A stretch of 37,202 nt of DNA, from positions 1 through 37,202 of the IMG/VR virus record IMGVR_UViG_3300027782_000178. One strand, 5' to 3'. The notes beneath the pieces were generated by a model, which was given only the letters and a program-made list of their open reading frames with translations, had not been told where the DNA came from and ran no database searches. The translations under genes were made by a program, and so were the position numbers. This document shows, piece by piece, positions 4,613 through 37,202 of this stretch; positions within the stretch are counted from its first letter, which is position 1, and the number at the start of each line of letters is the position of its first letter. Source of the stretch: a virus.

Positions 4613-5041
4613 TTAAGGTTTATCTTTATTATTTAGAAAACCTTGTTTGAGTAACTTTTGCAATTCTGAAGTTGATCCAACAAATACTGCATTATTGGTC
4701 ACATTATTGGTAGTTTTAGCATTATCATCTTCAATTCCTCTCATTTTCTTTTGAAGATCAATTAATTTATCTGCAGTATCGCCAACACTTTTTAAAATTT
4801 GACCAGCAACCTCATATGCTCTTGGACTGGCAGTTTCTGCTGCCAGTTCCATAATTCCATTTAAAGTTTCTTGCCCCTTTTCAATAAGTGAGTACAATTG
4901 TGCTCTACTGTACTCATAATCCTTTTGAACATCATCAGGTGTTGTTTTTATTACTTTAATATCTGTTGTTTTCGATTCAACTTCGACAATATTACTTTCA
5001 GTATTCAGTGCTTTATCAATAGACTCAAAATCATTTACCAT
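4613..5041 (-). CDS. terS: Terminase small subunit gp16
   Basis: The packaging regulator that forms a ring, recognises phage DNA and stimulates the gp17 ATPase. At 142 residues it is slightly shorter than T4 gp16 (164). The central region is helical and coiled-coil-like (YEYSRAQLYSLIEKGQETLN, then SPRAYEVAGQILKSVGDTAD and LIDLQKKM), which is the typical gp16 core. It is followed by an Asn/Thr-rich linker and a C-terminal segment VGSTSELQKLLKQG, as in other cyanomyovirus gp16 proteins. It lies 12 nt after gp15, the T4 gene order, but three extra genes separate it from gp17. Those intervening genes mark a hyperplastic interval rather than a break in the operon. Confidence 0.9.
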   Translation of the reverse strand: MVNDFESIDKALNTESNIVEVESKTTDIKVIKTTPDDVQKDYEYSRAQLYSLIEKGQETLNGIMELAAETASPRAYEVAGQILKSVGDTADKLIDLQKKMRGIEDDNAKTTNNVTNNAVFVGSTSELQKLLKQGFLNNKDKP

Positions 5042-5053
5042 ATTAATTGACCA

Positions 5054-5851
5054 TTAAATATCTGTTTGTTGATTTGGACTATAAGACTTGGAATCGTTAA
5101 AGAACTCCCAATTTTCATTGAATCCAAAATCATCATCTGGACCTGCATCAATAGGGTCTGGAACAACAGTATATCTCATTTCTCTCTTCGCATTTACTGT
5201 ATCTGTACTGGTATATGTATCAACTTGTACCTTACGAATAAGTCCATCTGTAGTATTGGAAATAGGTCCAAATAGATATGTTTTTGCAGTGAAATTTAAA
5301 GTGTAAATTAAAGACCTTCTTTCTGAAAAATCTCCCTCATAATCATCTTTAAATGAGATATCATCCAAATTTAGGGGAATGTCTCTTTTTTCTCCGATTG
5401 AATCTACAAGATCTACTGTCAATGTAAATGCTGGTTGAAAATATGGCAAAATTTGTTCTATAATTTGCAATGCATCATCATTCAATTTACACATAATACT
5501 AAGTTGAAATCCAATGTTGTATGGAACAGGCATATAGACTTTTTTTAAATTTTGCCCATCAGATGCTTTAAATGATTGAGTTACACTTGCCTTCCTTGAA
5601 GAATCATATCTTATAGAAGTCATCTCAAATGACATTCTTGGTAAAGTAATTTGTACCGGTTTGTTTAAATCTGCTTGTTGAGTTAAACGCGCAAGAAATT
5701 TTTGTGTTGGACCATATGCCAATGGTACTCTTAGTTCACTATAAGTATTATCATTAGCATCTTGGTGCTTAATATAAATTTGATTAAAAACCGTACCGAA
5801 AGCAATAATTGTCTTTCGTATAATCTGATGATAATAGTAAGTTCCTAACAT
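5054..5851 (-). CDS. 15: Tail sheath stabiliser/completion protein gp15
   Basis: This protein caps the distal end of the tail tube and sheath and joins the tail to the neck. At 265 residues it is nearly the size of T4 gp15 (272). The N-terminus MLGTYYYHQIIRKTIIAFG aligns in style with T4 gp15 (short aromatic start, then a helix, then IYIKHQ and an RVPLAYGPTQKFLARL block that parallels RVPITYASKEHF). A central TLNFTAKTYLFGP block is typical of the family. Its start codon overlaps the gp14 stop by 1 nt (TAATG), so the two are translationally coupled. Position between gp14 and gp16 agrees with T4 order. Confidence 0.93.
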   Translation of the reverse strand: MLGTYYYHQIIRKTIIAFGTVFNQIYIKHQDANDNTYSELRVPLAYGPTQKFLARLTQQADLNKPVQITLPRMSFEMTSIRYDSSRKASVTQSFKASDGQNLKKVYMPVPYNIGFQLSIMCKLNDDALQIIEQILPYFQPAFTLTVDLVDSIGEKRDIPLNLDDISFKDDYEGDFSERRSLIYTLNFTAKTYLFGPISNTTDGLIRKVQVDTYTSTDTVNAKREMRYTVVPDPIDAGPDDDFGFNENWEFFNDSKSYSPNQQTDI

Positions 5852-7239
5852 TAATAGTTACCGAATGGATTTGATTCTGAAAAATCTACAATGAGATCTG
5901 CCTCATTTTCAATTTCATCATTTTGTTCATATTTATCTGCAGATTGACTTTTAGAAGTATTTTTAAGTGTATATCTTGCTGACGATGCAGATCCAACGAT
6001 TGCTTCTCCAGCAATAAATGCTCCATCAATAACTCCAACTTCAAGAACAGAAGAATTTTTATACCAGGATTTAACTCTTGCTGTAGTGCCAGAAATAGAT
6101 CCAGTTACAATCTCATTGAATGCATATGTACCAATTCCAGTTACCAATGGTGGTGGTGCTATAGTAACAGTGGGCACATTAGAATATCCTTTTCCTGCGT
6201 CTTCAATAAGAATTTGTGATATATTTCCAGAATTTCCAACAATTGCTCTAACTCTGGCGGTTATAATACCAACACCTGTAAAAGTAACAATAGGGGAATT
6301 TACATAACCAGAACCAACAGTGGCAATTCCCACAGAGGTTAACCCGTAAGGAGATGTGACTAATTCGGATACAGCTTCTGCTCCAGATCCAATACCAGTA
6401 ATTATAACTGAAGGTGCGATAGTATACCCAAATCCAGCATTTGATAATAATATTTCTTTAATTGAACAAACACCCCCTTTACAAGTCGTAATTGCGATTG
6501 CATCAGCAGTTTGACCACCAGCTGGTGCTGGTGTAAATGAAATGATTGGAGTTTGTGTGTATCCATAACCATCATTATTTAAAATAATTCTTCTGACATA
6601 TCCAGATGAAATTCCAACACTATCTACAGTTGCTGTTTGATTACTTACAAATAATTGAAGTGATGTAATATACCCCTGATTCTGTAAAGTTCCATCTATT
6701 TCTTCCACAACAGAATTTACATCACTAAATCCTCCTATTTCATCTTCATATTCGAAGAGCTCACATCTTAATTCATAAACATATGTTTTTCCCAATTGAT
6801 AGAATGGTTGCTCATGTTCTACAAATTTAACTTCAAATAATCTTTTACCCAATGGAAAATATATAATATCTCCTTCTCTTGGTCTTGTAGATAATATAAT
6901 TTCATCATTATCCATACTATCTAAAAATGGTGCTATAAAATCTTCAAATCTTTCTCTTGATATAATAATTGTCAGTTCATCTTTCAGACTCATTCCAAAT
7001 TTAGTTAAAATATCTCCAGATCCTGCATATCCATCGTAATTACTTACATATGCTTCTAAAGCAAAGTTATCATCAAACCTTGAAGCAGTAACTTCTCTTA
7101 TGATAGTTTCTTGCCTTACAAATTTTCTAGGGATGTATAATACTTCGACACCATAAATCTTCAGTTGCTCGTTAATCAATTCTTGAACGAGTCTTTGTTC
7201 TCCTGGAGATCCTTGTAGGAAAAAGGGATTGAGTGCCAT
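5851..7239 (-). CDS. 14: Neck protein gp14 with a large repeat-rich insertion
   Basis: A component of the head-tail neck. Residues 1-165 are the conserved gp14 core (NPFFLQGSPGEQRLVQELIN, EVLYIPRKFV, EGDIIYFPLGKRLFEVKFVEH, YQLGKTYVYELRCELFEYEDE). The C-terminus VDFSESNPFGNY is also family-like. Between them, about residues 205-430 are an insertion: four copies of a unit of about 40 residues with a GxGYxxxP signature (near 224, 269, 309 and 350), then a GTxxFxxxExVxGxxSGTxARV module (about 370-430). At 462 residues it is nearly twice T4 gp14 (256). It is coupled to gp13 through a 1-nt TAATG overlap. Similar modules occur in gp8 and the two giant baseplate proteins. Confidence 0.93.
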   Translation of the reverse strand: MALNPFFLQGSPGEQRLVQELINEQLKIYGVEVLYIPRKFVRQETIIREVTASRFDDNFALEAYVSNYDGYAGSGDILTKFGMSLKDELTIIISRERFEDFIAPFLDSMDNDEIILSTRPREGDIIYFPLGKRLFEVKFVEHEQPFYQLGKTYVYELRCELFEYEDEIGGFSDVNSVVEEIDGTLQNQGYITSLQLFVSNQTATVDSVGISSGYVRRIILNNDGYGYTQTPIISFTPAPAGGQTADAIAITTCKGGVCSIKEILLSNAGFGYTIAPSVIITGIGSGAEAVSELVTSPYGLTSVGIATVGSGYVNSPIVTFTGVGIITARVRAIVGNSGNISQILIEDAGKGYSNVPTVTIAPPPLVTGIGTYAFNEIVTGSISGTTARVKSWYKNSSVLEVGVIDGAFIAGEAIVGSASSARYTLKNTSKSQSADKYEQNDEIENEADLIVDFSESNPFGNY

Positions 7240-8081
7240 TATCCAATAAAATCGTAGGGTGGAAGTTCGTAATCCATTGACATTCTTTCTGATATTGCTG
7301 ATATCTCTCTTTCTGCATCATCATATATTTCTCTACCATTTAATTCAATTCCACCTGGTAATTTAACACCTCTAAATTTAATGAGATTTTGTCCCCATTG
7401 CCTTTTAATTAATGCTGTAAGATATTTTTTAAGAAAGCTGTCGTTATAAACTTTAGTAAAATCATTTGGGTCTAATATTCTATAGCAGTCAATCACAAAA
7501 AATGTATCTGCCTTCTGTGCTCCCCAATCAATGTCCAAATACATTCTATTTTGTCTTTTATTAAATCGGATCTGCTTATCAGTTTTTAATAGGAAATCAA
7601 TATCCTCCAAATATGACTTAACCATAGCATATTGGAGAAGTTCAACGGAATTGAAATAATAAAGATCATTTAAAAATAACTGATATTTAATACTAAACAT
7701 CCCTCCAGAAATGTCGCTAGTATCAAACTTATACACTTTTTCAATTCCAATTACTGAATCTGGAATTTGAATAAAATTAGAGGTCTCATAAAAATTGAAA
7801 GTAGTAGTACCAATACCACTAATATTTGCAGATCCTGTAGTGGTTACAATTCCAACTCCATTTGTCCCCTTACCCTGACCTCTATTCAAATCTTGTTGTG
7901 TTATTTTATATTTCAAATACATTCTCTCAACACCATCAAAGTGCCTCTCATGGAAGTACTGGAGGGCGTCATCAACTAGATCATCTATTTGATCCTCATC
8001 TACATTAATTTCCAATACAGGAGCACCTAGGCGTCTTAGACAATAATCTATCAGTTCTTGTCTAGTATTTGGTTTTGCCAT
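7239..8081 (-). CDS. 13: Neck protein gp13
   Basis: The head-completion neck protein, 280 residues against 309 in T4. The N-terminus (TRQELIDYCLRRLGAPVLEI, then DDLVDDALQYFHERHFDGVE) is the hallmark of cyanomyovirus gp13. A conserved region DIDWGAQKADTFFVIDCYRIL-D-P precedes a C-terminus with IKFRGVKLPGGIELNGREIY and a final PPYDFIG. A strong ribosome site GGAGG lies about 10 nt upstream of the ATG. Overlap with gp14 is 1 nt. The gene immediately upstream ends on the first base of this start codon, so the small virion genes and the neck genes form one polycistronic block. Confidence 0.94.
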   Translation of the reverse strand: MAKPNTRQELIDYCLRRLGAPVLEINVDEDQIDDLVDDALQYFHERHFDGVERMYLKYKITQQDLNRGQGKGTNGVGIVTTTGSANISGIGTTTFNFYETSNFIQIPDSVIGIEKVYKFDTSDISGGMFSIKYQLFLNDLYYFNSVELLQYAMVKSYLEDIDFLLKTDKQIRFNKRQNRMYLDIDWGAQKADTFFVIDCYRILDPNDFTKVYNDSFLKKYLTALIKRQWGQNLIKFRGVKLPGGIELNGREIYDDAEREISAISERMSMDYELPPYDFIG

Positions 8082-8404
8082 TAGTAAGATCCTCCATCTA
8101 TTGAAGTTAAATTTCCGATAATATTACCATTGAAGTATACATTACCACTAAAAGATGATATACCACTTACATAAAGTTGAGTGACAGATGCAATACCACC
8201 AGTTACCGATTGTGAAGAAACTGATAACCCGGATACATCTGCATAAGATGCTGAACCTGCAGTATTTGCATAATCTGCTATATCTGCAAATGTGGCAGCA
8301 CCACCAACAACGGCAGTATTGGATGCCAATACTTTTATGGCATCTTGCTGACCTACATTTACATGCAAATCTGGTTGTCCAACTCTTACTCTTATATCTG
8401 CCAT
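8081..8404 (-). CDS. Small virion structural protein with Ala/Ser repeats, 107 aa
   Basis: Begins MADIRVRVGQ and contains an Ala-rich stretch (ADIADYANTAGSASYAD) like the ATYADTAGTA-type repeats of Synechococcus phage fibres. It is followed by SVTGGIASVTQLYVSGISSF and a fibre-like NVYFNGNIIG segment, and ends GGSY. No enzymatic motif is seen, and no signal peptide or membrane segment. An AAGGAG ribosome site lies about 12 nt upstream. It overlaps its neighbours by 1 nt on each side (TAATG at the 8404 junction). Probably a short fibre, whisker or neck-attached protein; the function is inferred only from composition and position next to gp13. Confidence 0.8.
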   Translation of the reverse strand: MADIRVRVGQPDLHVNVGQQDAIKVLASNTAVVGGAATFADIADYANTAGSASYADVSGLSVSSQSVTGGIASVTQLYVSGISSFSGNVYFNGNIIGNLTSIDGGSY

Positions 8405-8748
8405 TATCTAGTTACTCCTTCCCTTACCAAAACCATCCCTTCAATAACTCTAGATGTAGTGCCATCAGAAGAATTATATGCGTTAATATCATAAATGTAT
8501 CTTCCTGGTTTTATATTTGTTGTGGTTGTACTAGTCAATCCAATTCGTATAGTGCCTTGAGATGCATTTAGTATGGTGGAAGTAAACGCAATTGAAGATG
8601 AACTAGCAGAATGCTTTCTCATCTGAGATGCAATAGTGTAAGTAGACAAATTCAAAACTGAATTTGTAGAGATACTTTCTAAGGTAAAAACTTGGCTAAA
8701 ATCTGCTCCAGCATTAATAACTAGATTACTAACATATACTGCAGCCAT
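8404..8748 (-). CDS. Small virion protein, 114 aa, behind a late promoter
   Basis: A beta-rich protein (AVYVSNLVINAGADFSQVFTL, then IASQMRKHSASSSSIAF, IRIGLTSTTTTNIKPGRYIYDI, RVIEGMVLVREGVTR). The pattern of GADFSQVFTLE and PGRYIYDINAY resembles small baseplate or upper-tail domains that recur in tailed phages, so a structural role is likely. It is the first gene after the TATAAATA late promoter at 8773-8780, with 24 nt between the motif and the start codon. It therefore probably opens the transcription unit that runs through gp13, gp14, gp15 and the terminase genes. Confidence 0.8.
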   Translation of the reverse strand: MAAVYVSNLVINAGADFSQVFTLESISTNSVLNLSTYTIASQMRKHSASSSSIAFTSTILNASQGTIRIGLTSTTTTNIKPGRYIYDINAYNSSDGTTSRVIEGMVLVREGVTR

Positions 8749-8772
8749 TTATACAATACCAGATCTCTTTTT

Positions 8773-8780
8773 TATTTATA
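8773..8780 (-). promoter_or_regulatory. T4-type late promoter TATAAATA
   Basis: A perfect TATAAATA on the minus strand, beginning directly after the stop of the upstream small gene (8781) and 24 nt before the start of the 114-residue virion gene. T4-like cyanophages use NATAAATA as the late promoter element read by the gp55-type sigma factor. It would drive the neck and terminase block. Confidence 0.8.
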
Positions 8781-8957
8781 TTATGTGTTAATATTCAAAC
8801 TCAATAAGCATTCTTGTTGAGCAAAATAAAGTTTGACATAAGATTTAGAAATATTTTTTAAAACTTCAACATCTTCACAATTTTCTATTTCTCTTGAAAT
8901 TTTTTCATATTCAAAAAGTTTTGATATTGAACTGAGTTCTATCTTAGATGGATCCAT
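8781..8957 (-). CDS. Small conserved cyanophage protein, 58 aa
   Basis: Encodes MDPSKIELSSISKLFEYEKI and continues with ENCEDVEVLKNISKSYVKLY and a short hydrophobic tail (CLLSLNINT). It is mostly helical. Proteins of this type (a KIELSS-SKLFEYEKISRE core) are found next to baseplate genes in T4-like cyanophages, but I know of no assigned role. I chose the ATG at 8957 over a TTG three codons earlier (8966), because the ATG matches the usual MD start. It overlaps the upstream gene by 14 nt, in another frame. A late promoter follows immediately after the stop. Confidence 0.72.
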   Translation of the reverse strand: MDPSKIELSSISKLFEYEKISREIENCEDVEVLKNISKSYVKLYFAQQECLLSLNINT

Positions 8958-9150
8958 TTTTTTCAAGTAATTGTTTCAGTAAAGATTTTATCTCATTTAT
9001 ATCACTTTTTATGTTATCAATTTCTCTTTTTTGAGAATCTCTAGCATTTAATGAGTTAACATACTGATTATATGCAACAGAGTCGCAGTTTATAATTGCC
9101 CCAGATCCTTCATCTCTATAAAGATTTGGATGTCCTTCTACTCTTATCAT
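8944..9150 (-). CDS. Small conserved cyanophage protein with C-terminal coiled coil, 68 aa
   Basis: Begins MIRVEGHPNLYRDEGSGAII, which I recognise as a recurring small protein in T4-like cyanophages. The second half (about residues 36-64) is a heptad-like helix, IDNIKSDINEIKSLLKQLLE, suggesting oligomerisation. The start overlaps the stop of the giant DUF4815 gene (ATGA), so it is translationally coupled to it and probably equimolar or assembly-linked. It is likely a minor virion or assembly factor; no catalytic residues are seen. Confidence 0.78.
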   Translation of the reverse strand: MIRVEGHPNLYRDEGSGAIINCDSVAYNQYVNSLNARDSQKREIDNIKSDINEIKSLLKQLLEKNGSI

Positions 9151-31765: not shown

Positions 31766-32167
31766 TTATCTGGTTGCCTCTAGTAGAAATGTAAATTGTT
31801 GCGTGGGAAATTGTTGACCAATGATATCAAATATAACAGTCACTTCAAATGAATTATCATCTGGTTGAGGATCTACTTCTACTTTTACATTATTCACTCT
31901 TGATTCATAATTTTGAATTGTAGTTTCAATTTGAGTTTGTATGACAGATGCAGTACCATAGTCTACAAATTCAAATAAACTTGAACGAACTTCAGATCCA
32001 AGTAAAGAATTAAAAAATCTTTCAGTTGGAATTGTTTCTACTAGATTGCGAATTGATCTAGTAATTGCTCTCTCATTCTTGAGTATTGGTAGATCCTTTG
32101 TCACCGGATGAGGATCAAAGGATAAACTAATATCTTTAAATGATCTAGATATCCTCTGTATTGCCAT
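31766..32167 (-). CDS. 25: Baseplate wedge/sheath initiator gp25
   Basis: A short baseplate protein that nucleates sheath polymerisation. At 133 residues it is the same size as T4 gp25 (132). It shows the family pattern: ISRSFKDISLSFDPHPVTKD, LKNERAITRSIRNLVETIPT, a SLFEFVD segment, then YESRVNNVKVEV and a hydrophobic C-terminus. The family's E-P-R motif is E-S-R here (residues 88-90), a substitution in a usually conserved position. A CATAAATA late promoter precedes it, with 23 nt between motif and start, and it leads the 25-6-giant operon. Confidence 0.94.
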   Translation of the reverse strand: MAIQRISRSFKDISLSFDPHPVTKDLPILKNERAITRSIRNLVETIPTERFFNSLLGSEVRSSLFEFVDYGTASVIQTQIETTIQNYESRVNNVKVEVDPQPDDNSFEVTVIFDIIGQQFPTQQFTFLLEATR

Positions 32168-34390: not shown

Positions 34391-34419
34391 ATCATAACTC
34401 ATTATATAGTGTTTGTCAA
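34391..34419 (-). promoter_or_regulatory. Consensus sigma70-type promoter for the glycosyltransferase cluster
   Basis: On the minus strand, TTGACA (34414-34419) and TATGAT (34391-34396) are separated by exactly 17 nt. A start site near 34384 would give a 16-nt leader before the glycosyltransferase ATG. Early/middle cyanophage genes use host sigma70. The -35 box overlaps the stop codon of the AbrB-like gene, and the spacer contains a 14-nt sequence repeated upstream of that gene. Confidence 0.8.
34401..34414. repeat. 14-nt repeat, copy 1 (in glycosyltransferase promoter spacer)
   Basis: The sequence AAACACTATATAAT (minus strand) lies between the -35 and -10 boxes of the promoter at 34391-34419. 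An identical copy is at 34619-34632. Its placement inside a promoter spacer fits an operator for a DNA-binding protein. Confidence 0.75.
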
Positions 34420-34589
34420 TCTTCGCGTTCGGTGAGAATAACATCATCTCCCTCAACTTTAAAACTAATCTCAGTATCTTCATACCATGAGAGTTCGTTG
34501 GCGATACTCTCTGGAATTATGATGTAGTAGTCTCCACTAATTGGATCGACCTGTACGGACTCAAAAATTTCTCCGGGATTTTTTTTCAT
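34416..34589 (-). CDS. Small AbrB/SpoVT-like protein, 57 aa
   Basis: Encodes MKKNPGEIFESVQVDPISGD, then YYIIIPESIANELSWYEDTE and ISFKVEGDDVILTERED. The pattern of a short strand, an IPESIANELSWYEDTEI segment, then FKVEGDDVILTE is that of the swapped-hairpin AbrB/SpoVT/MazE DNA-binding fold, at the right length for one such domain. The start lies at 34589; no good Shine-Dalgarno is visible. As it is encoded between a 14-nt repeat copy at each end, it could be an autoregulator acting on its own gene and the glycosyltransferase cluster. That regulatory role is inferred. No toxin partner is recognised next to it. Confidence 0.72.
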   Translation of the reverse strand: MKKNPGEIFESVQVDPISGDYYIIIPESIANELSWYEDTEISFKVEGDDVILTERED

Positions 34590-34632: not shown

Positions 34633-34869
34633 TGAGGATTTGGAGAATCTTTGTGGGTTTTGGAAGATCTTTGTGGGGCGCGGAAATTTTTGAGTCTCGT
34701 GATATATACAGGTCGATCTGGGTCGTTTATAGATTGGAAGGGACCCATGGGCTTAAACCGCCGAACCCCCGCGACCCATAAGGACTGCAAATCACGAACG
34801 AACGAATGATTAGCACTGCTAATCACGAACGAATAGGGGCGCTAACTGCGCCCCACTAACTAACAACAA
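34633..34869. other. Gene-free stretch between the AbrB-like gene and the 42-aa gene
   Basis: About 240 nt with no convincing gene (the one open frame here is compositionally poor and unsupported). It contains a near-direct repeat of TCTTTGTGGG (around 34640-34680), two copies of a 13-nt block AATCACGAACGAA (34790-34802 and 34821-34833), and two stem-loops: TGATTAGC-ACT-GCTAATCA at 34807-34825 and GGGGCGC-TAACT-GCGCCCC at 34836-34854. Confidence 0.6.
34836..34854 (-). terminator. Stem-loop after the 42-aa gene
   Basis: GGGGCGC and GCGCCCC form a 7-bp perfect GC stem with a 5-nt loop, 15 nt past the stop of the 42-residue gene. On the minus strand it is followed by only a weak T-containing stretch, so termination is plausible but not certain. 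Confidence 0.5.
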
Positions 34870-34998
34870 TCAGGCGAAGTCTGCCGGACTCCCGCAACTA
34901 CGATAGAAGGCAATCATGCCCTCTGCTTCACACTTAGTGGCGAACGATTGTGTTCTCCATTCTTGTGCATAAGGCGTGAAATACTTGATTGTGAACAT
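34870..34998 (-). CDS. Small conserved cyanophage protein, 42 aa
   Basis: Encodes MFTIKYFTPYAQEWRTQSFA, then TKCEAEGMIAFYRSCGSPAD and FA. I recognise the style of a short cyanophage protein with the pattern FTIKYxTPYAxxWRTQSFAT, thought to be a compact alpha/beta unit, but its role is unknown. A longer frame begins at 35145 but would overlap the neighbouring gene; the ATG at 34998 gives the conserved form. The leader has no purine-rich ribosome site but carries CAAACCA 11 nt before the ATG. A GC stem-loop follows the stop. Confidence 0.75.
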   Translation of the reverse strand: MFTIKYFTPYAQEWRTQSFATKCEAEGMIAFYRSCGSPADFA

Positions 34999-35027
34999 TT
35001 TAGGTGCAATGGTTTGTGAGAATGAAG

Positions 35028-35047
35028 AGGGGGAATCGCTTCCCCCT
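35028..35047 (-). terminator. Stem-loop after the 83-aa gene
   Basis: AGGGGGAA and TTCCCCCT form an 8-bp perfect stem around a 4-nt loop (TCGC), starting 10 nt past the stop of the 83-residue gene. On the minus strand the following sequence is CTCTTCATT, only partly U-rich. It may be a terminator or an mRNA-stabilising end. Confidence 0.5.
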
Positions 35048-35056
35048 AAGTGTACC

Positions 35057-35308
35057 TTAGACTTGCTCAAATCCGATCGCCCGATCGGATCGGGCAGAAA
35101 AGTCGACCTGCCTCCCTGAACGCCGGAGCGCCCATGCAACGGCACCGCGCAAGGCGGGAGACTCTACGGGGACTCCATAGGTCTTGATGATGGACCCACC
35201 TTCCCCCACGGGAACAAATGTGTAGGCGAGCGCCCGCTCACCGCGCCAGTCGGCGTTGATGGCGTTGGTGATGGCGGCGGCGGCGGCAGCGGAGATAGCG
35301 GTGTTCAT
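35057..35308 (-). CDS. GC-rich small protein of unknown function, 83 aa
   Basis: Starts MNTAISAAAAAAITNAINAD with an Ala-rich helix and continues WRGERALAYTFVPVGEGGSI, ending IGFEQV. The codon usage and high GC content contrast sharply with the AT-rich virion genes, which suggests a different origin. No known domain is recognised, and there is no membrane segment. Near the 3' end the coding DNA holds a near-perfect palindrome GCCCGATC-G-GATCGGGC (about 35075-35095). The start lies in the first of three copies of a shared leader (see the repeats), with CAAACCA 7 nt before the ATG in place of a Shine-Dalgarno sequence. Confidence 0.72.
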   Translation of the reverse strand: MNTAISAAAAAAITNAINADWRGERALAYTFVPVGEGGSIIKTYGVPVESPALRGAVAWALRRSGRQVDFSARSDRAIGFEQV

Positions 35309-35347
35309 CGGTCAGTGGTTTGGGACTTGTTAATCCTACACCATCCG

Positions 35348-35357
35348 GAACCGGTTC
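35348..35357. promoter_or_regulatory. Perfect 10-bp palindrome GAACCGGTTC, copy 1
   Basis: GAACCGGTTC occurs here and again at 36327-36336, each time at the outer end of the shared leader. The middle leader lacks it (GAACCCATAA). A protein-binding site is possible, but a role is not shown by the sequence. Confidence 0.5.
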
Positions 35358-35418
35358 AGGGGGTCCAAACCTTAAGAAATCCTGGATCTGTGATAAGGAA
35401 TCCTGATGGGTCAGGGGG

Positions 35419-35449
35419 TTGACTTAGGGTCCGGGTCCCGTGCTAGAGT
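35419..35449 (+). promoter_or_regulatory. Plus-strand sigma70-like promoter, copy 1
   Basis: TTGACT (35419-35424) and TAGAGT (35444-35449), with 18-19 nt spacing depending on which -10 register is used. The pair is conserved in repeat unit B, where the -35 is a perfect TTGACA. It faces the minus-strand KTSC-type gene, so it would make an antisense transcript. Confidence 0.5.
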
Positions 35450-35483
35450 GAAGGTAGAACCTATTTTAGGTGGGGATAAAGTA

Positions 35484-35512
35484 TAAAAAAAGGGAGGCGG
35501 ATTGCCTCCCTT
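35484..35512 (-). terminator. Rho-independent terminator of the KTSC-type gene
   Basis: On the minus strand, a 9-bp perfect stem (AAGGGAGGC with GCCTCCCTT, loop of 5) is followed by a run of seven T, directly after the stop of the KTSC-type gene. This is the clearest intrinsic terminator in the window. Confidence 0.85.
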
Positions 35513-35527
35513 AAATATACCTTCAGA

Positions 35528-35839
35528 TCAGACTTCGATCTTTTCCAGATCACCGTGCTTCAGCGCACGATGTAGCATAGACCCCCAAGATGTGGCAGAC
35601 TTTGCTTCATCGTCGCTCAAAAGTTCATGCCAACGACGTGCAGCACCGCTGCTAAGATCGTCTTCGAAAATGTACCTATAAACTTTATTTTGGTTGGAGT
35701 TAAATATAACCAACAGGTGAGGCATATTGTCATTGTCGATGACAATACCTAACCTGGCAATTGCGCTAGAGTTGACTGCTACGGTCAGCAGCAGCGCCTG
35801 ATCGGCGCTAAAAGTTGGGTAAGCGGTGGCAGTGGTCAT
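35528..35839 (-). CDS. KTSC-domain-like small protein, 103 aa
   Basis: Starts MTTATAYPTFSADQALLLTV and contains VNSSAIARLGIVIDNDNM, LVIFNSNQNKVYRYIFEDD, then a helical tail with SATSWGSMLHRAL. The SSAIARLG start, the F-S/N-x-x-VYRY strand and the following helix match the KTSC fold (a domain also found at the C-terminus of lysyl-tRNA synthetase, whose role is unclear). Compared with standard KTSC domains, the linker before the last helix is longer. It lies in a leader/terminator cassette: CAAACCA 9 nt before the ATG, an intrinsic terminator after the stop. The first codons (MTTAT) match those of the next upstream gene. Confidence 0.78.
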   Translation of the reverse strand: MTTATAYPTFSADQALLLTVAVNSSAIARLGIVIDNDNMPHLLVIFNSNQNKVYRYIFEDDLSSGAARRWHELLSDDEAKSATSWGSMLHRALKHGDLEKIEV

Positions 35840-35951
35840 CGGGGTCAGTGGTTTGGGACTCCCTAATCCTACACCATCGGGAACCCATAAGACGGGTCCA
35901 AACCTTAAGAGAATCCGGATTTACCATAAGGAATCCTTATCGCCCAAAGGG

Positions 35952-35982
35952 TTGACAATGGGTCCGGGTCCCGTGCTAGATT
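35952..35982 (+). promoter_or_regulatory. Plus-strand sigma70-like promoter, copy 2
   Basis: A perfect TTGACA (35952-35957) and TAGATT (35977-35982), spacing 18-19 nt. Both boxes and the GGGTCCGGGTCCCGTGC spacer are conserved with copy 1. It would transcribe antisense to the 76-residue gene. Confidence 0.55.
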
Positions 35983-36015
35983 GAAGGTAGAATCTATTTT
36001 AGGTCAAGACAAAAT

Positions 36016-36045
36016 ATAAAAAAAGGGGGAGGATTAATCCCCCTT
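36016..36045 (-). terminator. Terminator of the 76-aa gene
   Basis: On the minus strand, an 8-bp stem (AAGGGGGA with TCCCCCTT, 7-nt loop) followed by a run of seven T just after the stop of the 76-residue gene. It is the counterpart of the terminator in unit A. Confidence 0.82.
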
Positions 36046-36054
36046 AAATATACT

Positions 36055-36285
36055 TTAAGGTTCCATAATGACCTGGGAGAATACCCCAGCGCCTAGATTG
36101 GCGTCTGCCCAATCTTCCGCCACGGCGGAGATTGTGCCGTAAAAGTCTTCCGCCAACTCTTCAGAGTCAACTTCTAAATCTACTTTAATGAATCCATTGG
36201 GAATCCAATGGCGAGCATCAGTGGGCAAATAGTACTCAATACCTGCTTCTACGGTGACGGTGGTGCTGGTGGTTGCAGTGGTCAT
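36055..36285 (-). CDS. Small acidic protein of unknown function, 76 aa
   Basis: Encodes MTTATTSTTVTVEAGIEYYL, then PTDARHWIPNGFIKVDLEVD and a strongly acidic helix SEELAEDFYGTISAVAEDW. It has no recognised domain. A longer frame starts at 36507, but its extra 74 residues are low in complexity and run through the repeat region; the ATG at 36285 sits in the shared leader (CAAACCA 9 nt before it) and gives the MTTAT start seen in the KTSC-type gene. An intrinsic terminator follows. Confidence 0.72.
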   Translation of the reverse strand: MTTATTSTTVTVEAGIEYYLPTDARHWIPNGFIKVDLEVDSEELAEDFYGTISAVAEDWADANLGAGVFSQVIMEP

Positions 36286-36336
36286 CGGGGTCAGTGGTTT
36301 GGGACTCCCTAATCCTACACCATCGGGAACCGGTTC
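36286..36336. repeat. Leader repeat C (third copy)
   Basis: Upstream of the 76-aa gene. It keeps the shared leader (GGTGTAGGATTAGGGAGTCC, then CAAACCACTGACC in transcription order) and the GAACCGGTTC palindrome, but the rest of the unit seen in A and B is replaced by unrelated sequence. Confidence 0.78.
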
Positions 36337-36607
36337 GGCGGGATCCTGCCAAAATCGGGACAGTTGCCCAACTGGCACAAGGGGGGGGGCAGTTAGTATA
36401 AAGAATAAAGAACTGATTAGAATTACAAAGTATAAAGAACTCAAACTCCACAAACTATAAAGAATTAGACAAGATTGAATGTAAAGAATAAACCACACCA
36501 CTGACAATACTTTACACTCAATCCTGTGTAATTCTTTATACTTAGGCCTGCGTATAAAGAATTAAGAACTACTTGTGATTCATTCTTAATTCTTTATATC
36601 TTACACT
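36337..36607. other. Gene-free region with TATAAAGAA repeats and inverted repeats
   Basis: About 270 nt without a supported gene. It holds a short inverted repeat CAGTTG-CC-CAACTG (36361-36374), nine consecutive G (36381-36389), and four direct copies of TATAAAGAA (36397, 36431, 36456, 36553). Two more copies are inverted (36532-36540, 36590-36598), and there is one degenerate copy (36480). A 12-bp perfect inverted repeat AATTCTTTATAC/GTATAAAGAATT lies at 36530-36563. Confidence 0.75.
36530..36563. repeat. 12-bp perfect inverted repeat
   Basis: AATTCTTTATAC and GTATAAAGAATT are separated by a 10-nt spacer. It lies about 45 nt past the stop of the 52-aa gene and could form a stem-loop, though the T-rich run expected of an intrinsic terminator is not well placed. 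Confidence 0.7.
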
Positions 36608-36766
36608 TCATACTTCATCTTGATTCATTGTGCAATGAATGTGCATCTTATCAATAATGCTATTACATGCCCGTACATCATCATCATTATCTGTGCATCC
36701 TAGGTGTGCAAATATGGCATCATAAATTACATCGAGTTCGCGTGAATTGAAGGTGGGAATGATCAT
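36608..36766 (-). CDS. Small helical protein, 52 aa
   Basis: Encodes MIIPTFNSRELDVIYDAIFA, then HLGCTDNDDDVRACNSIIDK and MHIHCTMNQDEV. The pattern (a short start, RELDVIYDAIxxHLxxxxDDDVxxxNSIIDKMH) resembles small helical proteins scattered through cyanophage genomes, but no function is known. The longer frame to 36847 is rejected because it runs through a palindrome. The leader has no Shine-Dalgarno site and is a CA-rich run with TGTGATTGTGTG repeated twice on the plus strand. Confidence 0.7.
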   Translation of the reverse strand: MIIPTFNSRELDVIYDAIFAHLGCTDNDDDVRACNSIIDKMHIHCTMNQDEV

Positions 36767-36773
36767 GATGATG

Positions 36774-36806
36774 TGTGATTGTGTGTGATCTAGATGTGAT
36801 TGTGTG
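36774..36806. repeat. Two direct copies of TGTGATTGTGTG upstream of the 52-aa gene
   Basis: Copies at 36774-36785 and 36795-36806 have starts exactly 21 nt apart, about two helical turns, which would place them on the same DNA face. They sit in a low-complexity TG-rich stretch, so a slippage origin is also possible. Confidence 0.55.
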
Positions 36807-36821
36807 ATGAATGTGTGCGCG

Positions 36822-36858
36822 TCTCGACTAGATTGTATGGGGCGCAATCTAGTCGAGA
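36822..36858. repeat. 14-bp perfect inverted repeat
   Basis: TCTCGACTAGATTG (36822-36835) and CAATCTAGTCGAGA (36845-36858) flank a 9-nt loop. It lies between the stop of the 55-aa gene and the 52-aa gene. No T-run follows on either strand, so it is not a classic terminator. Confidence 0.85.
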
Positions 36859-36864
36859 TTCTAT

Positions 36865-37032
36865 CTAATAATGATGCCTAGACATTGTGCAATTGGGATC
36901 ATTATACCAATCAGAATCCTCATAAGATTCTGATACTTTAGGGGTCATCCGAAGCATAAGATCATCGGATAATTTGCAGACTCCAGTTGTAACTAATTCA
37001 AGGATTTCGTCAGGTGTTAGAAAGGTTTCCAT
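36865..37032 (-). CDS. Small acidic protein, 55 aa
   Basis: Encodes METFLTPDEILELVTTGVCK, then LSDDLMLRMTPKVSESYEDS and DWYNDPNCTMSRHHY. The LTPDEILELVTTGVCKLSDDLM portion looks helical; the second half is acidic and aromatic. No domain is recognised. The start was chosen at the ATG at 37032; its leader carries two CAAACCA motifs, 2 and 12 nt before the ATG, instead of a purine-rich ribosome site. It is followed directly by the 14-bp inverted repeat. Confidence 0.68.
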   Translation of the reverse strand: METFLTPDEILELVTTGVCKLSDDLMLRMTPKVSESYEDSDWYNDPNCTMSRHHY

Positions 37033-37076
37033 TGTGGTTTGGTGTGGTTTGAACTGAGAGAATCATAGCATGGATT

Positions 37077-37096
37077 GGGGGGCATCTGCGCCCCCC
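37077..37096 (-). terminator. GC stem-loop after the right-edge gene
   Basis: GGGGGGC and GCCCCCC form a 7-bp perfect stem around the loop ATCTGC, 10 nt past the stop of the partial gene. No T-run follows on the minus strand, so it may be a weak or Rho-assisted terminator. Confidence 0.45.
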
Positions 37097-37105
37097 CTGG
37101 GAGAA

Positions 37106-37202
37106 TCAATAACCTAACCAGGTTAGCAGTTCGCCAGTATCGACGCGGAAGGGTTTGGTTCCGTATTCTGTGCAGAAGTCTTCCCAGACCCCATGATCCT
37201 TA
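37106..37202 (-). CDS. Partial small gene at the right edge
   Basis: Only the last 32 codons are visible, reading KDHGVWEDFCTEYGTKPFRV and DTGELLTWLGY then a TGA stop. No domain can be named. It continues the run of short genes in this part of the genome and is followed by a GC stem-loop. The start lies off the right edge, so its length is unknown. Confidence 0.55.
   Translation of the reverse strand, partial: KDHGVWEDFCTEYGTKPFRVDTGELLTWLGY

Follow-up and report, generated by a model that had tools for sequence, protein, structure and literature searches.

A stretch of cyanophage DNA in which three small, mutually dissimilar genes stand behind near-copies of the same non-coding sequence raises the question of what that sequence does and how several genes came to share it. 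The stretch analysed here (hereafter the window), 37,202 bases long, makes up an entire IMG/VR record and is a fragment of a T4-like cyanophage, with the baseplate wedge gene gp25 at 31766–32167 and mostly genes for giant structural proteins in the remainder. The repeated units lie in a variable block that adjoins gp25, with a G+C content of 52% at 35–36 kb compared with 25–41% elsewhere in the window. The analysis described below leads us to regard each unit as probably a composite terminator-plus-promoter cassette of a gene-variable (hyperplastic) block that would exchange its genes by recombination between units.

Repeated units and the genes between them

All genes and units discussed are encoded on the minus strand. 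Unit A (35309–35512) separates gene B, the KTSC-like gene, from gene A, and unit B (35840–36045) separates gene C from the KTSC-like gene. A repeat search recovered the two as a direct repeat of 217 nt (35310–35526 and 35843–36059) with 79% ungapped identity, and blastn gave 81% identity, that is, 79–81% over 217–230 nt across both methods. In blastn searches with unit A the E-values were 8e-53 for unit B and 2e-15 for unit C. The unit coordinates given in an earlier note on this DNA were correct, and on the repeat search and blastn a chance repeat was rejected. The note had also reported a 57-nt identity between B and C extending into the first codons, which was recovered as an exact match (35829–35885 = 36275–36331) that includes five codons. 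Of unit C, which the note describes as partial, the right part is present, with the predicted promoter box and the leader in front of gene C (36286–36333), and is shared with B. Unit C is no plain truncation of A or B, its upstream half being a different module with a palindrome designated P2 (36357–36378).

The three genes encode polypeptides of 83 (gene A, 35057–35308), 103 (gene B, 35528–35839) and 76 amino acids (gene C, 36055–36285). Protein A has an Ala-rich start and no family match; protein B has homologues in 12 contigs and belongs to phrog_4357, a PHROGs family without annotated function; protein C is acidic, with a homologue in contig L049 and others. Pairwise comparison of A, B and C gave no BLASTP alignment at E≤100, in agreement with the claim that the coding regions are unrelated, and the comparison of unit with coding identity suggested in the note set unit DNA of about 80% identity against cargo proteins without similarity. 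The identification of protein B as KTSC-like was not confirmed. The Pfam KTSC model matched none of nine gene B homologues and a PDB search with the AlphaFold model of the protein (pLDDT 76) gave no significant match; a KTSC fold found no support, and 'KTSC-like' is kept here purely as a label. A tblastn search of 50,697 phage records with gene B gave no match.

Around 35 related contigs were obtained by scanning IMG/VR with parts of the unit, with the KTSC-like protein and with the neighbouring DUF7227 gene. An initial scan for the pattern GGTCCAAAYCTTAAG had yielded 39 contigs, only a few of them relatives; an iterated nhmmer model identified units, complete or partial, in the majority of the related contigs tested. 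About 40 unit copies were recorded in some 35 IMG/VR contigs. At least two units each were present in L049, L086, L104, L116 and L119, and units occupied one site per genome in the records searched. Neither of the two findings that the earlier note named as refuting its reading, homologous cargo proteins or units that are single in every other genome, was obtained. Contig L041 had units 100% identical to those of the window, in a block reaching about 3.2 kb further upstream. The border of the variable block is also the location of a 57-amino-acid protein (34416–34589 in the window) with a weak match to MazE/AbrB-type proteins (phrog_661, E 4e-10; Pfam MazE below the cut-off), which is kept in 18 contigs.

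The closest isolates with matches to the window were the freshwater Synechococcus phages B23 and S-SRM01. B23 has five units that differ in sequence from those of the window (GTGCTAGACTGTATTCAACAAAC...CAGGACACTTCTCCTG), within about 4 kb (5034–9100), beside gp25 and in a genome position equivalent to that of the window's block, with small hypothetical genes separating them; the B23 unit had no match elsewhere in its 243-kb genome. A host origin of the unit was considered and rejected, as a search of 84,980 genomes of bacteria and archaea for its core (described below) turned up one exact match, which lies on a contig of 3.9 kb assigned to a Rhodobacteraceae bin. The contig RGAJ01000223.1 (L094), filed under a Rhodobacteraceae MAG, holds a unit together with genes of this cyanophage family and is probably stray phage DNA binned by mistake.

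Predicted terminators, promoters and palindromes within the units

Read in the direction of the genes, the stop codon is followed by a hairpin with a T-run, a 25-nt core (AGGTTCTACCTnCATCCTAGCACG), TGTCAA, 11 nt and the 15-bp palindrome P1 (ATNAGSATTSCTNAT); in a typical unit P1 is followed by another 11 nt, TTGACN, 17 nt, a −10 hexamer and, after about 25–30 nt, the ATG. Intrinsic terminators consisting of a hairpin and T7 were predicted for gene B at the start of unit A (35485–35512) and for gene C at the start of unit B (36018–36045). The region 34800–37202 contained 11 terminator-like sites compared with 2.0 in shuffles, all of them on the minus strand and including 35512–35490 and 36045–36023, and a hairpin with at least seven T was present in 14 of 14 full units.

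The core is located at 35439–35467 in unit A and at 35972–36000 in unit B. On the opposite strand, core and TGTCAA together read TTGACA-18/19-TGC-TAGGAT, a predicted extended −10 promoter aimed into the preceding gene and referred to here as leftward, antisense to the genes. In the window the corresponding plus-strand sequences are TTGACT-19-TGC/TAGAGT in unit A (35419–35449, extended −10 TGC-TAGAGT at 35441–35449) and TTGACA-19-TGC/TAGATT in unit B (35952–35982, extended −10 TGC-TAGATT at 35974–35982). The leftward −10 hexamers were TAGGAT (30), TAGATT (7), TAGAGT (2), TAAATT (1) and TAGAAT (1), conforming to TAnnnT throughout, with TA preset in the search pattern and the final T left free. 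The leftward TTGACA was matched at five or six of its six positions in 24 of 41 copies (0.4 expected).

A gene-facing promoter, TTGACN-17-CATACT/AATACT, was predicted in most units of a short class, defined by the distance from core to start codon. This distance was 128–132 nt in 20 units, 144–145 nt in five, 148–152 nt in 12 and 140 nt in two, counts that include doubtful instances inside other genes in L088 at 4568 (144 nt) and L102 at 6331 (140 nt). Units A and B of the window belong to the long class and keep the left side and P1 at the usual spacing. Their gene-facing side has only a −10, without a recognisable −35. The predicted hexamer, TAGGAT, was located through alignment of relatives at 35333–35338 for gene A, 35866–35871 for gene B and 36312–36317 for gene C. 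In A and B it is displaced outwards by about 20 bp, close to two turns of the helix, a shift suggesting that position on the face of the helix may be constrained. A plain promoter scan of the window gave no excess of promoters, and the top-scoring predicted promoter of units A and B pointed away from the gene (z 1.9 and 3.3, respectively).

P1 lies at 35393–35407 in unit A (ATCAGGATTCCTTAT) and 35926–35940 in unit B (ATAAGGATTCCTTAT), and was present with up to two mismatches in 26 of 39 units where about 0.15 would be expected. It was placed exactly 11 nt from the leftward TTGACA-like box in these 26 units and, in 17 of them, also from the rightward box. Measured from its centre, the distance to the end of the leftward box was exactly 19 nt in 26 of 26 cases, and that to the start of the rightward box was likewise exactly 19 nt in 17 of 17 short-class units. 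The search did not force this constancy, as it allowed windows of 18–20 positions for the boxes. Common descent accounts for part of it, although 43 of 136 unit pairs were below 60% ungapped identity, some through one-base register shifts. The bare box-P1-box pattern was also found in L126, L128 and L129, which have no core, although these matches show occurrence alone as the pattern search required the spacing. Outside the three units, the segment 34778–34833 contains a further P1-type palindrome (ATTAGCACTGCTAAT, 34809–34823) with a 25-nt imperfect direct repeat next to it, followed by a GC hairpin at 34836–34854, and another such palindrome was seen near one of the five B23 units.

Upstream of gene C, P2 (GTGCCAGTTGGGCAACTGTCCC) replaces both core and P1. 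Units with P2 (GTGGACAGTT-N4-AAGTGGCACA) mostly have neither P1 nor the two −35 boxes, and the palindrome of unit C in the window is P2-like. In S-SRM01, too, a Gp37/Gp68-like gene is followed by a terminator, a palindrome of the P2 type and a box resembling a promoter, and then by an unannotated ORF. This ORF, at about 7600–7797, probably represents a small gene (MFSATLTNPQSFGATYQWAIL...) that the annotation of the record does not include, and an ORF similar to it is found behind a core in L100. In the AT-rich gap upstream of gene C (36395–36600), TATAAAGAAT / ATTCTTTATA occurs six or more times, with copies in each orientation, together with long inverted repeats (36453–36489 / 36507–36543 and 36553–36568 / 36583–36598); the similar TATAAAGAATA is present in B23 units.

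P1 and P2 are probably operators. A typical unit would have two sigma70-like promoters diverging around the 15-bp palindrome, which is most likely the site of a regulator controlling the cassette genes together, and the leftward promoter may yield a short antisense RNA, cause supercoiling or do nothing. Only tentatively do we entertain the idea that the units form a dispersed phage regulon, in which mirror-symmetric divergent promoters around P1 or P2 would respond to one regulator, the small genes would be switched together and the leftward transcript would act as an antisense RNA or, for the gene-facing promoter, as a driver of supercoiling. A rather unlikely alternative is that the TGTCAA and TTGACA boxes form the two ends of a single large palindromic site for protein binding, in which case the leftward promoter would be no promoter. 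The boxes are indeed reverse complements, symmetric about P1, and L129 has both yet no leftward −10, but units with P1 have the leftward extended −10 at 18–19 nt from TGTCAA and the rightward −10 at 17 nt from TTGACN, and L126 has a leftward TTGACA-17-TAGAAT in other sequence.

We consider it improbable that the main product of the units is a short antisense RNA, with the leftward transcript running from the core across the preceding hairpin and regulating genes in cis or trans. The leftward promoter does score best in most units, A and B included, and no part of the unit is better conserved than its −10 with the first approximately 20 nt. However, the T-run of the hairpin faces the gene direction only, leaving a leftward RNA without a clear end, short-class genes have well-formed predicted promoters of their own, and some units, such as that of L129, have no core. 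An Rfam search of the unit gave sub-threshold matches alone (sraA, E 0.6; a frameshift element, E 0.61), which argues against such an RNA, and a known structured RNA was dropped as a candidate.

Gene content, gene order and chimaeric units in related phages

The gene content between fixed frame genes varied across 20 contigs, with genes in the variable blocks of relatives called by our own heuristic. The order of genes is C, KTSC-like and A in the window and KTSC-like then C in L049. The DUF7227 gene is followed by a unit and a gene whose product begins MATVLTG in L041, L058, L060 and L072, and by a unit and the KTSC-like gene in L035 and L048. The predicted ORFs downstream of 41 distinct core copies formed 20 clusters; since a few single ORF calls are doubtful, we set the number of unrelated small cargo genes behind one core at 15 or more.

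Comparison of the units by parts indicated that they are chimaeric. Left parts track the preceding gene, as in unit A of the window and the unit before gene C in L049 (93% identity), both of which follow the KTSC-like gene. Middle parts are common across contexts, with 100% identity between unit A and the MATVLTG unit of L041 and, likewise, between the gene C unit of L049 and the MATVLTG unit of L060. The right parts of the first pair were 55% identical despite their 100% middle, and those of the second pair were 92% identical with unrelated genes downstream. In the comparison of related phages, rearrangement breakpoints coincided with units. Homologous recombination between units would be expected to produce such chimaeras, and we infer it to be their cause; gene conversion or shared descent could account for part of the likeness of units. 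The varied cargo, the changed order at units and the chimaeric units in relatives support the earlier note's proposal that genes are swapped while the expression module in front of them stays constant.

In the proposed mechanism a unit would end the previous small gene by its intrinsic terminator and start the next from its own promoter. With both elements in each unit, every cargo gene would be transcribed independently and could be acquired, dropped or relocated on its own. The likeness of the units would favour homologous recombination between them, within and between phages, and such exchange would swap the enclosed genes and leave chimaeric units behind.

A duplication, in which one gene was copied with its control region and only the control regions remained similar as the coding sequences lost all recognisable likeness, is very unlikely. 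It would fit the tandem arrangement of the units and the first codons common to B and C, but not the complete dissimilarity of the cargo proteins next to unit DNA of 80% identity, nor the homologues of genes B and C found elsewhere in a different order and with other unit halves; the number of unrelated genes behind the core likewise spoke for its rejection. An integrase-driven, integron-like array, which the earlier note had brought up and which an array of small, promoterless-looking genes had seemed to favour, deserves practically no credence, since each gene has its own predicted promoter and terminator, the chimaeric units have no fixed crossover point and tyrosine integrase (PF00589) was absent from six records, two of them complete isolate genomes, with positive controls.

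Comparison with known gene cassettes

Cassette exchange by recombination between units, the reading preferred here, can be set beside three known systems. Integron cassettes are, like the present genes, arrays of interchangeable small genes without assigned function, and differ from them in the integrase, promoter, terminator and crossover features just discussed. Lambdoid morons are small genes with their own promoter and terminator and, as here, a G+C content unlike the rest of the genome; they are single insertions through non-homologous recombination (PMC1524935). The flanking elements of the present genes are, in contrast, repeated and common to several genes.

By analogy, the better comparison is with the PeSL (promoter-early stem-loop) cassettes of T4-type phages, reportedly described by Arbiol et al. 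in 2010 and Comeau et al. in 2014. The present units share with PeSLs a position at which the gene content of a T4-type genome varies, here beside gp25, the presence of several similar copies in one genome and the rearrangement breakpoints at the units. The succession of stem-loop terminator and predicted gene-facing promoter is clear in short-class relatives and reduced to a terminator and −10 alone in the window units. The present units differ in being longer (about 200 nt) and in having a conserved predicted leftward extended −10 promoter and a central palindrome at fixed spacing. To our knowledge PeSLs include neither a central palindrome nor a leftward promoter, and our literature searches gave no description of these features in cyanophages. 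PeSLs are repeated terminator-plus-promoter elements amid nonessential small genes in T4-type hyperplastic regions and act as places of exchange. One published account reports few PeSLs in the marine cyanophage S-PM2 and doubts PeSL-type shuffling there (PMC4503421). The cyanophages studied here, on the other hand, carry such elements densely.

Large blocks of small genes that have no known relatives are found in freshwater cyanophages, and the gain, loss and control of these genes are at stake. A dense PeSL-like system in cyanophages offers enough copies for exchange tracts and a fixed internal geometry to be seen. A shared regulator is predicted for the cassette genes, and the DNA signature TGTCAA-N11-ATNAGSATTSCTNAT-N11-TTGAC could serve as a search pattern for co-regulated genes, among them genes missing from the annotation of isolates. 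While the PeSL-type cassette itself was already known, the palindrome at a fixed 11-nt spacing and the mirror-image divergent predicted promoters around it appear to be new.
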